Positions 19,364 through 32,417 of a stretch of 35,745 nucleotides of DNA are shown here, in pieces (the stretch's first letter is position 1; each line of letters begins with the position of its first letter). The DNA comes from Flaviaestuariibacter sp. (GTDB lineage Bacteria > Bacteroidota > Bacteroidia > Chitinophagales > Chitinophagaceae): the NCBI GenBank assembly GCA_028288515.1, contig JAQBNP010000166.1, forward strand, positions 1-35,745, in the 5' to 3' direction. Position numbers and translations under genes: made by a program. The notes beneath the pieces are model-generated. The model ran no database searches. It was given only the letters and a program-made list of their open reading frames with translations, and was not told the DNA's origin.

Positions 19364-20200
19364 TCACTCCTCAAACACCACGCTCAGCGCGATCTCTTCG
19401 TTTGCTTTGAGGTCGGCCTCAACCTGGGAAAGTTTGGCGCGGATGGCTTGTAGTGGCGCCTTGCCAAGCGGCAGCCGCAGTGCCGTGCGTCCATCGTGAA
19501 CATAATCAACCATGGCGCGGGCACCTTTCTCGGGATCGCCTTCCTGCTTACCGTCGACCGTTTGAATATAGCGGTACATCTGTGCGACTGGCGTTTTCTC
19601 GTATTCACCGAGGCGCGACTCCGCCAGGCGGATGGAAGACCCGGCAAACTTTGTTCGGAAGGGTCCCGGCTCTACGATCGTGACCCTGATACCAAAAGGC
19701 GCCAGCTCCAGGGACAGGGCTTCACTGAATCCTTCCAGCGCAAACTTGCTCGCATTGTACACGCCGAAGCCCGCCATGCCGCGAAAGCCCGCCGATGAGG
19801 AGATCTGCAGGATATGGCCGGCACCGGCTTGTCGCATGAGTGGGATCACCTCCTTTGTTACGGCCATCGCGCCGAAGAAATTGGTTTCCATCTGCGCGCG
19901 TATTTCGGTCATGCTGAATTCCTCGACGGCGCCGATCGTTCCATAGCCGGCATTGTTCACGAGGACGTCGATCGTGCCGAACCGTGACACCGCCGCCTGC
20001 ACCGCTGCACGGACCTGCTCCTCGCTTGTGACATCCATCACGACGCCGAGGCCGGTCCCGGGATTGGCTTCCGTGAATGCGCGCGATGCATCGTCCTTCC
20101 GAAAGGTAGCAACGACGCTGTCGCCGCGCGCGATGACCGCTCTCGAAAGAGCTTCGCCGAGACCGCTGGAAGCGCCTGTAATGAGCCAGACTTTTGCCAT
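19364..20200 (-). CDS. Short-chain dehydrogenase/reductase
   Basis: 278 aa. WLITGASSGLGEALSRA, LVNNAGYGTIG, SSSAGFRGMAGFGVYNASKFALEGFSE. Confidence 0.94.
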   Translation of the reverse strand: MAKVWLITGASSGLGEALSRAVIARGDSVVATFRKDDASRAFTEANPGTGLGVVMDVTSEEQVRAAVQAAVSRFGTIDVLVNNAGYGTIGAVEEFSMTEIRAQMETNFFGAMAVTKEVIPLMRQAGAGHILQISSSAGFRGMAGFGVYNASKFALEGFSEALSLELAPFGIRVTIVEPGPFRTKFAGSSIRLAESRLGEYEKTPVAQMYRYIQTVDGKQEGDPEKGARAMVDYVHDGRTALRLPLGKAPLQAIRAKLSQVEADLKANEEIALSVVFEE

Positions 20201-20387
20201 ACTGATTGATTGTTTTGAATGAACAAGCAGGATGATGCAAAGTTCAGGAAGGACCGCGGCGCCACCAACGGGACTACAAAACCGTTTTTAGGATTCATGG
20301 CTTGGCGCACCTCGGCCTTATCGTGCAGGGACCCGAGGAGAGGTTGGGCCACGAAGACACAAAGGCTCAAAGGAGCACAAAAGAAAA

Positions 20388-20436
20388 CCCTTTGCGGTTC
20401 CTTTGCTGCCTTGCGGCCTTTGCGTTTCATGTAGTT
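20388..20436 (+). repeat. Direct repeat copy 1 flanking the composite tandem array
   Basis: CCCTTTGCGGTTCCTTTGCTGCCTTGCGGCCTTTGCGTTTCATGTAGTT. Confidence 0.85.
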
Positions 20437-20489
20437 TTTTTTGGTAAACAGGTTTTTTCGCCTTTTTGATGTAACTGAATCGCTTTCCC

Positions 20490-20667
20490 ATATGGGAGCG
20501 ATATGGGTAGGATATGGGTTGGATATGCGTTCAGTATGCTTCTGGTATGCGTGTGATATGGGTTGGATATGGGTGCGATATGCGTTGTATATGGGTACAA
20601 TATGGGTTGCATATGGAGAATATATGGAAGATATATGGAGAACATATGGAAGACATATGGAAGGAAC
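20490..20667 (+). repeat. 11-bp tandem repeat array, 16 units, invariant TATG core
   Basis: ATG at 20492, 20503, 20514, ... 20657, each exactly 11 bp apart, each preceded by T. Confidence 0.97.
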
Positions 20668-20714
20668 AGGCAAGAATCGTGATGGAAGGGATGGAGCATG
20701 TGGCCCTCTCGCGG

Positions 20715-21132
20715 AGCATGCTGTCCGTGACGCGGAGCATGCTGACCTCCGCCCAGAGCATGCTGACCGTGACGCAGAGCATGCTGTCCGTGGCGCGGAG
20801 CATGCTGACCGGAAAGCATGTCATGCTGACCGCCGCGCAGGAGTCGCTGTCCACTACGCAGGAGTCGCTGCCCGCCGCGCAGCGCACGCTGCCCGACGCG
20901 CAGAGCACGCTGACCAGCACGCAGACCTGGCTGCCCGACGCGCACGAGTCGCTGCCCGGCAACATGAGTCGCTGACCGCTGCGCAGAACAGGCTGACCGG
21001 TCCGCATGGCTCACTGACCAGCGCGCAGGAGGCCCTGACCGGCACGCACGCATCGCTGATCGGCAATCATGTCATGCTGACCAGCAAGCAGGGGTTGATG
21101 GCTCCCAGGCAGGCGTGCTGACCGGCAAGCGT
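20715..21132 (+). repeat. 21-bp tandem repeat array, about 20 units (consensus near NNCATGCTGACCGNCGCGCAG)
   Basis: Eleven 21-bp units 20715-20945, one 20-bp unit 20946-20965, seven 21-bp units 20966-21112, then a degenerate unit. Confidence 0.95.
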
Positions 21133-21196
21133 AAAGCTTTAATGCGGGTGCGGCTTGTGTTTGTCCCATGCGGGTCTTCATGCACCATGATCAGCT

Positions 21197-21247
21197 CCCT
21201 TTGCGGTTTCCTTTGCTTCTTTGCGCGCTTTGCGTTTTCATGTAGTT
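21197..21247 (+). repeat. Direct repeat copy 2 flanking the composite tandem array
   Basis: CCCTTTGCGGTTTCCTTTGCTTCTTTGCGCGCTTTGCGTTTTCATGTAGTT; matches 20388-20436. Confidence 0.85.
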
Positions 21248-21310
21248 GCGGGGTGACAGCCGGGGAGAGGCCGGTGGGCTGGTGAGAGAACGACCGCGCG
21301 CAACGTCTTG

Positions 21311-21436
21311 GAGGGAAAGGTGCTGACATACGTCAGCATGACACCGAGAGTGCATGGGTTCACTGGCAGGGCGCGCGGGTCCTTTTTGAGGGAAAGGTGC
21401 TGACATACGTCAGCATGACACCCCGAGAGTGCATGG
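21311..21436 (+). repeat. Two direct copies of an about 50-bp hairpin element
   Basis: GAGGGAAAGGTGCTGACATACGTCAGCATGACACC(CC)GAGAGTGCATGGGT at 21311 and 21388 (77 bp apart). Each contains TGCTGAC-ATAC-GTCAGCA (21321-21338, 21398-21415). Confidence 0.9.
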
Positions 21437-21498
21437 GTCTCCAGGTGAGTCGTCACAAATCGTAAATCGTCAGGCTAAAATCTAAATGGCCTCATGCG

Positions 21499-22179
21499 TT
21501 AGTCGTTCCCCTCCCCTCCCAGCGCGCGGTTCAGAAACCCCAGTAATGGCTGGAGCGCCGTGAAGGCGGCCTTTGTTTTTTTGTGCAGGGTGGCCTTCGT
21601 CAGCTCTGCGTCCGTGACGGTCACCTCGGCGATAAAGCTTTTGAGACGCAGGTAGGCAATGGCCGGGTTCTCACGCTCATAGCCCTTCGGCAAAGTTTTC
21701 AAGGAAACGTCCTCACCCTGGTGAAGGTCACGGAAGATCTTCTTGAACGAGGACTCCGTCAGAACGCCGCGAAACTCTTCCCAGTTATAATCGATCTCCT
21801 GCCGCACAGCCTTGAGAGGACCGGCCTCCGGCATCCACAAGCCACCGCCAATGAAGGAGGCGCCAGGCTCGAGGTGAAAATAGTAGCCGGCAAAACCCGA
21901 CTTGCGGCCGCCTCGCTTGATACTCGCGCCGAAATGACTCTTGTAGGGTGTCTTGTCGTTTGAAAACCGGATATCACGGTTGATGCGGAAAATGGCGCTG
22001 CGGGCGCTGGTCCCCGCGATGGTCGGATCCTGCCGCTCGAGGTCCTCGATGAGTAGCTGAATGAAATTGGAAAAATCGATCCGTGCCGCTTCATAGGCCA
22101 CCCTGTTGGCATCGAACCAGGCCTTGTTATTGTTTTCTTTCAGTTGCCGCAGGTACTGCAGCGTTTGAGGAAGGAGCAT
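21499..22179 (-). CDS. DUF2461 family protein
   Basis: 226 aa. LRQLKENNNKAWFDANR, FRINRDIRFSNDKTPYKSHFGASI, GYYFHLEPGASFIGGGLWMPE. Confidence 0.92.
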   Translation of the reverse strand: MLLPQTLQYLRQLKENNNKAWFDANRVAYEAARIDFSNFIQLLIEDLERQDPTIAGTSARSAIFRINRDIRFSNDKTPYKSHFGASIKRGGRKSGFAGYYFHLEPGASFIGGGLWMPEAGPLKAVRQEIDYNWEEFRGVLTESSFKKIFRDLHQGEDVSLKTLPKGYERENPAIAYLRLKSFIAEVTVTDAELTKATLHKKTKAAFTALQPLLGFLNRALGGEGND

Positions 22180-25700: not shown

Positions 25701-25913
25701 GGAAAGTGAGTGGTGAGTGGTGAATAGTGAATGGTGAATAGTGAATACTGAATAGTGAATAGTGAATGGTGAGTGGACCTCGAAGACACGAATTAGGGAA
25801 CACAAAGGATCTCTCTTTGCCCCATTTTTCGCAGCGTGCATACATGCTTCCTGCACGCCAGGCGACCGACTCGTATTCACTATTCACCATTCACCACTCA
25901 CCATTCACTTTCC
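25701..25913. repeat. Foldback element with heptanucleotide-repeat terminal inverted repeats
   Basis: Left GGAAAGTGAGTGGTGAGTGGTGAATAGTGAATGG...; right end, reverse complemented, GGAAAGTGAATGGTGAGTGGTGAATGGTGAATAGTGAATA. Inner hairpin GCGTGCA...TGCACGC. Confidence 0.8.
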
Positions 25914-32370: not shown

Positions 32371-32412
32371 ACTCACTACTCACCATTCACTATTGACTAT
32401 TCACAATTCACT
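32371..32412 (-). repeat. Heptanucleotide repeat (TTCACTA/TTCACCA family) upstream of tadA
   Basis: CTCACTACTCACCATTCACTATTGACTATTCACAATTCACTC. Confidence 0.85.
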
Positions 32413-32417
32413 CTTCC

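Follow-up and report, generated by a model that had tools for sequence, protein, structure and literature searches.

The 11-bp tandem array described here lies between genes in the window, that is, the whole 35,745-nucleotide stretch of Flaviaestuariibacter sp. DNA that was analysed, and represents a dispersed element with at least nine long copies in its genome. We consider it reasonably probable that this is a satellite-like repeat, non-coding and intergenic, that took its period from the process that amplified it and was subsequently dispersed as a block. As a dispersed non-coding repeat, the array is real; its period and its spread would have come about by the mechanisms proposed below.

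At the locus, 16 units follow one another back to back without an indel, with TATG at 20491, 20502 and so on to 20656. Identity at lag 11 is 0.73 within the array, compared with 0.25-0.27 at lags 10 and 12 and 0.29 at lag 7; TRF also reports the array, with period 11, and with uniform base frequencies the number of runs like this expected in the window by chance is about 2e-34. The first-pass annotation had described exactly these 16 units and this register of TATG, and both stand, although it overlooked the array of 21-bp units directly downstream and the other genomic copies of the 11-bp array. The two arrays share a 1.3-kb gap (1299 bp) between two minus-strand genes, along with further repeat modules (Table 1). 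The 21-bp array, which slips phase by one base around 20940-20965, is dispersed in the genome, too (C178, C212, C235, C266, C124). Module M1, a CTTTGCG/CGCAAAG near-inverted module, also borders the 11-bp array at C74 and C140, the hairpin of module M3 carries GGTGCTGACATACGTCAGCATGACA, and both modules have many copies in the genome and short cores in congeners. Elsewhere in the window, heptamer arrays (AGTGAAT / ATTCACC / TCACTAT) were seen at 25705-25772, 25875-25908 and 32373-32416, the former two being a facing inverted pair beside the gene for the DNA ligase LigA.

Table 1. Repeats and flanking genes at the array locus (window coordinates)
Feature	Position	Strand	Remarks
SDR family oxidoreductase gene	19364..20200	-	flank, synteny anchor
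Dispersed intergenic module M1 (CACGAAGGCACAAAGG ... CTTTGCGGTTCCTTTGC ... CTTTGCGTTTCATGTAG)	20325..20432		
5' leader of array	20457..20490	+	diverged here; loosely kept at other copies, roughly GGAACCNGGGTTTGCCAT..GGGAGCGA
Near-palindrome TCGCTTTCCCATATGGGAGCGA	20479-20500		left half within 5' leader
11-bp array, 16 units	20491..20666	+	consensus TATGGGTNNNR; core R-TATG; variable spacer, positions 8-10
Element 3' end, CAG right after last unit	20667..20669	+	common to six copies
Array of 21-bp units, about CATGCTGACCGNNNCGCRGAG	20693 to ~21130	+	adjoins 11-bp array; lag-21 identity 0.63
Partial second copy of M1	21190..21246		downstream of array
Module M3, two copies, hairpin GGTGCTGACATACGTCAGCATGACAC	21310..21440		
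TIGR02453 family protein gene	21499..22179	-	flank, synteny anchor

The case for a dispersed block comes from the rest of the source genome (G000: 303 contigs, 84% complete). The four-unit TATG pattern has 61+70 matches in G000 as a whole, against 7+3 for the reversed pattern, and besides the window array these come down to eight further long ones (C74, C144, C140, C150, C155, C86, C160, C80). C183 also holds a remnant, shortened to about three units, with both the 5' GGGAGCGA and the 3' CAG ends preserved; the C74 and C80 contigs stop within the array, so that the count is a lower bound. The CTTCTGG unit adjoins the 5' end in all eight copies that extend that far, the 3' units of most copies come in the same order (GGAGAATA, GGAAGATA, GGAGAACA, GGAAGATA, GGAAGAAA), and CAG closes the element in the window, C144, C140, C155, C86 and C183. 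Alignment in unit order gives scores of 44-59 compared with shuffled means of 18-25, above all 200 unit shuffles in 7 of 7 comparisons. The element, then, exists as a block of leader, ordered array and CAG end at nine loci and in one short remnant. The copies sit between genes, in both orientations relative to these, and such flanks as can be named are unrelated (tatC and GH53; an APP1 phosphatase; a sigma factor and a haem-binding protein; AsmA; a MIP channel; a metallophosphatase); the copy ends, inspected for target-site duplication, are ragged and embedded among other repeats. Because the window array shares its unit order with eight other loci, it grew before it was dispersed, and recent slippage at the window locus, one of the origins offered by the first-pass annotation, is not borne out. 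Array length changes by whole units: whole copies hold 14-19, and these, with the remnant, support expansion and contraction in 11-bp steps. Composite arrays were also observed (L001, L002, L018 and L361; C18, C32 and C77 in the source genome), in which 11-bp ACCGAAGGATC units are followed by TATG units, then by TACGACTG units and, in some copies, by heptamers.

A search of related genomes, which the first-pass annotation had named as a check, found the array in none of the 18 other genomes of the genus, which have no more than short segments of the neighbouring modules in common with the locus. The gene order asd-SDR-TIGR02453 is present in most congeners, and the same gap in eight of them is free of the array and spans 67-792 bp, against the 1299 bp seen here. 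Across 396 genomes of the family, a 20-base piece of the array occurs only here, apart from near-chance matches with two mismatches. Given this absence from congener gaps and from genus and family genomes, the 1.2 kb of repeats represent extra DNA of the source species, to which, judging by sequence matches, the exact array seems to be restricted, the scattered two-mismatch matches elsewhere being close to control level. Y1_Tnp/RAYT (PF01797) has no match in the 84%-complete genome, no transposase that could account for dispersal was found there, and RAYT mobilisation was set aside on that ground; inverted repeats of at least 14 bp are absent from 20200-21500. An origin from a phage or plasmid was dropped as well, blastn of phage and plasmid records giving no match to the array. 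Separately, 17 viral-contig stretches (L336-L352) carry some TATGG array of 11-bp units.

A scan of public genomes that used the TATGG core itself as the query found arrays of at least five 11-bp TATGG units in 118 or more stretches, most of them from Bacteroidota, with Rhodobacteraceae, Anaerolineae and others in addition; within the family, the reversed pattern matches about as many genomes outside the source genome. For both these reasons, we do not claim that the TATGG 11-bp arrays of different phyla all share an ancestor, and their likeness may be convergent. In several Chitinophaga genomes, there is a dispersed element, near-palindromic and about 160 bp long, that consists of inverted 11-bp units, CCATATATAAC on the left and TATGGGTTATA on the right (L150:1690-1880, L154, L158; 34-38 matches per genome, both strands counted). 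Many dispersed TATGGGYGACC 11-bp arrays were noted in the rumen Bacteroidales RUG13111 (L142, L156, L165, L167, L173, L175, L189).

The array belongs to a class of intergenic repeats of this lineage in which the periods are almost exclusively 7 and 11 bp, with their multiples, and the cores are unrelated. Counted with a genic mask that is a simple ORF rule, and with dispersed copies of one family not being independent, non-genic arrays in one congener (G308) have period 7 in 33 of 49 cases, 11 or 22 in 13 and other periods in three, and TRF and run counts give a similar picture; in the source genome, 14 of 20 arrays are multiples of 7 and one has period 11, and two other congeners as well as other genera of the family are mainly of period 7. 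Among Bacteroidales loci with the known match masked, period 7 accounts for 7 of 23 and period 11 for 8 of 23; none of five Chitinophaga loci masked in this manner shows the pattern, and the restriction to 7 and 11 is thus not universal. The E. coli K-12 control yields a single array, of period 18. G308 alone contains at least five sequence-unrelated 11-bp cores, for example, TACAGRAGAGG, GATACGGAGTA, CTTCGGGACTT and TTATAGGCGGC; stretches sampled from it (L253-L272) are dense in intergenic 7- and 11-bp arrays, with the TACAGRAGAGG core in both orientations. A common period combined with dissimilar sequences argues for an array-making process, or for the pitch of DNA, over a single binding protein.

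The nearest described class is that of the long simple sequence repeats (LSSRs) and STRR-type intergenic repeats, of which the array would be a variant. According to a paper citing Mrazek et al. 2007 (PMC4679880), LSSRs have units of 5-11 nt, heptamers being the commonest, and slippage with a step length set by the polymerase has been proposed for the 7-nt class. As far as that description goes, the likeness consists in tandem units within 5-11 nt and in heptamers being the commonest class in both; moreover, with 16 x 11 bp and a chance of 2e-34, the array is longer than expected for a tandem unit of 1-11 nt, as LSSRs are defined. The units here are imperfect, identity at lag 11 being 73% and spacer positions 8-10 near random. 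Unlike the LSSRs as portrayed in the citing description, they share an invariant core and are ordered and dispersed in blocks, with a peak at 11 bp beside that at 7. Intergenic heptamer repeats include the cyanobacterial STRR and TAACTGA, the latter in Beggiatoaceae and in some Cyanobacteria and Bacteroidetes (PMC4679880); like the array, these are scattered, lineage-specific intergenic direct repeats of no known function, and the window has heptamer arrays of its own, but the unit of the array is 11 bp rather than 7, has another sequence, and is ordered and divergent.

Other systems share individual traits with the array. The parC centromere of plasmid R1 has 11-bp direct repeats in register, the sites of ParR (PMC9426499), whereas the array has many intergenic copies, another sequence and no parM or parR beside the copies read, whose neighbours are asd, SDR and TIGR02453 in the window and tatC, GH53, APP1, sigma factor, AsmA and MIP genes elsewhere. 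Like REP/REPIN sequences and MITEs, the array is short, dispersed, intergenic and apparently non-autonomous, but it has neither terminal inverted repeats nor a hairpin unit, and no Y1 transposase was found in the 84%-complete genome. It differs from the Chitinophaga palindromic element in being one-directional, without the left arm CCATATATAAC. The A/T periodicity of bacterial genomes, which is tied to supercoiling (PMC4132750, PMC516772), likewise repeats at about 11 bp, close to the pitch of underwound DNA; it is, however, a slight bias in the statistics of A/T steps, whereas the array is a discrete tandem repeat.

Conservation within the unit is highly uneven. TATG is unchanged in 145 of 148 units, and the information over these units is 1.88-2.00 bits at positions 1-4 and 1.39 at position 11 (A or G), compared with 0.04-0.17 at positions 8-10, where the spacer is close to random. 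Because arrays that exchange whole units can thereby shift spacer variation but not core variation, we counted changes in four homologous units whose place is fixed on the CTTCTGG unit; 4 changes fall in the core versus 26 at the other seven positions (p=0.005), with positions 6 and 7, outside the core, as quiet as the core, so that the constrained motif has no sharp edge. The lower rate of change suggests that the core matters at the DNA level, either as microhomology for realignment or as a candidate contact site. Of the DNA-level constraint that the first-pass annotation had raised, the position-specific part, namely, a requirement for R-TATG, is thus moderately supported, and a role of the core as a phased-binding site is possible. 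The further suggestion of the first-pass annotation, a shared DNA face for the TpA steps, holds only if the helix turns once in about 11.0 bp: at 10.5 bp per turn, the sites drift by 257 degrees over the array and a common face is not established. The exact 11.0-bp spacing fits underwound, not relaxed, DNA.

A phased landing platform is one rival to the preferred explanation of a repeat with an amplification-set period. By analogy with ParR, a protein or nucleoid factor would contact R-TATG at each helical turn of underwound DNA and polymerise on it or wrap it. The invariant core and variable spacer across 148 units, the slower change of the core in anchored units (p=0.005), the exactness of the 11-bp register despite changing unit number, and the precedent of 11-bp ParR repeats (PMC9426499) would all fit, but the array is missing from the 18 other genus genomes and from the syntenic gap, the neighbouring genes read include no partition genes, the sites leave one face at 10.5 bp per turn, and a single protein cannot explain a class whose 11-bp arrays have unrelated cores within one genus; on balance, we regard such a platform as unlikely. 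A bolder combination, in which the intergenic DNA of the lineage would be built or selected exclusively in 7- and 11-bp steps and R-TATG would be the helically phased contact site through which an undescribed chromosome-organising protein holds the register at nine or more loci, strikes us as distinctly improbable.

A structured element, that is, a hairpin of single-stranded DNA or RNA acting as a terminator or in MITE-like fashion, as the Chitinophaga near-palindromic elements might, is very unlikely here. The Chitinophaga element of about 160 bp, with its inverted 11-bp TATGGGTTATA units, matches itself on both strands, and shuffled sequences fold slightly less well than the window array (z about -2.5, for RNA and DNA alike); however, the array is unidirectional, its copies show no inverted partner array, and other genomic copies have not retained the near-palindrome of its 5' edge, which was therefore dropped as a meaningful feature. 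Rfam gave no family match for the array, and the reading as an RNA family was rejected. Least credible of all is a protein of 11-residue repeats, perhaps joined to the product of the 21-bp (7-residue) array. Long open frames come with the period, because an 11-bp repeat yields one and the same 11-mer whichever frame is read; an ORF of 153 aa (20514-20975) spans both arrays, and there are 26 plus-frame stops compared with 67 in column-shuffled arrays, a shuffle that also breaks linkage within units. The frames agree only partly with the first-pass annotation: one plus frame has no stop, the other two plus frames have one stop each, and two minus frames are open. Against a protein, stops interrupt every plus frame in three of the nine copies, the sequence 3' of the array and the flanking frames vary between copies, the 21-bp array shifts frame at its phase slip, and Pfam has no family match for the ORFs over the arrays. 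The coding reading was rejected on the stops and the Pfam result, and the 11-mer peptides proposed in the first-pass annotation were not borne out.

Under the preferred explanation of a satellite-like repeat dispersed as a block, the period would have been set while the array was being made, by slippage or template switching in fixed steps of 7 or 11 bp during replication, a process that would impose these two lengths. The finished array would then have been copied to other intergenic sites, with the surrounding repeat modules as partners in gene conversion or template switching, its spread being tolerated, presumably, by virtue of its location between genes, and misaligned pairing of units would add and remove units in register. 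Two observations stand against this explanation: the invariant TATG lies beside a near-random spacer, unlike what uniform neutral mutation predicts, and no mobility machinery was identified in the 84%-complete genome or at the locus.

For gene calling, arrays of this kind call for caution, as long frames stay open on both strands. The dispersed, ordered arrays amount to natural replicates, with one ancestor and at least nine sites, and allow gains of units, losses of units and site-specific constraint to be measured apart from one another. If the quantisation of intergenic repeats at 7 and 11 bp holds up in a full survey, an older proposal would become testable, namely, that the step length of bacterial long-unit tandem repeats is set by the replication machinery or by the pitch of DNA.
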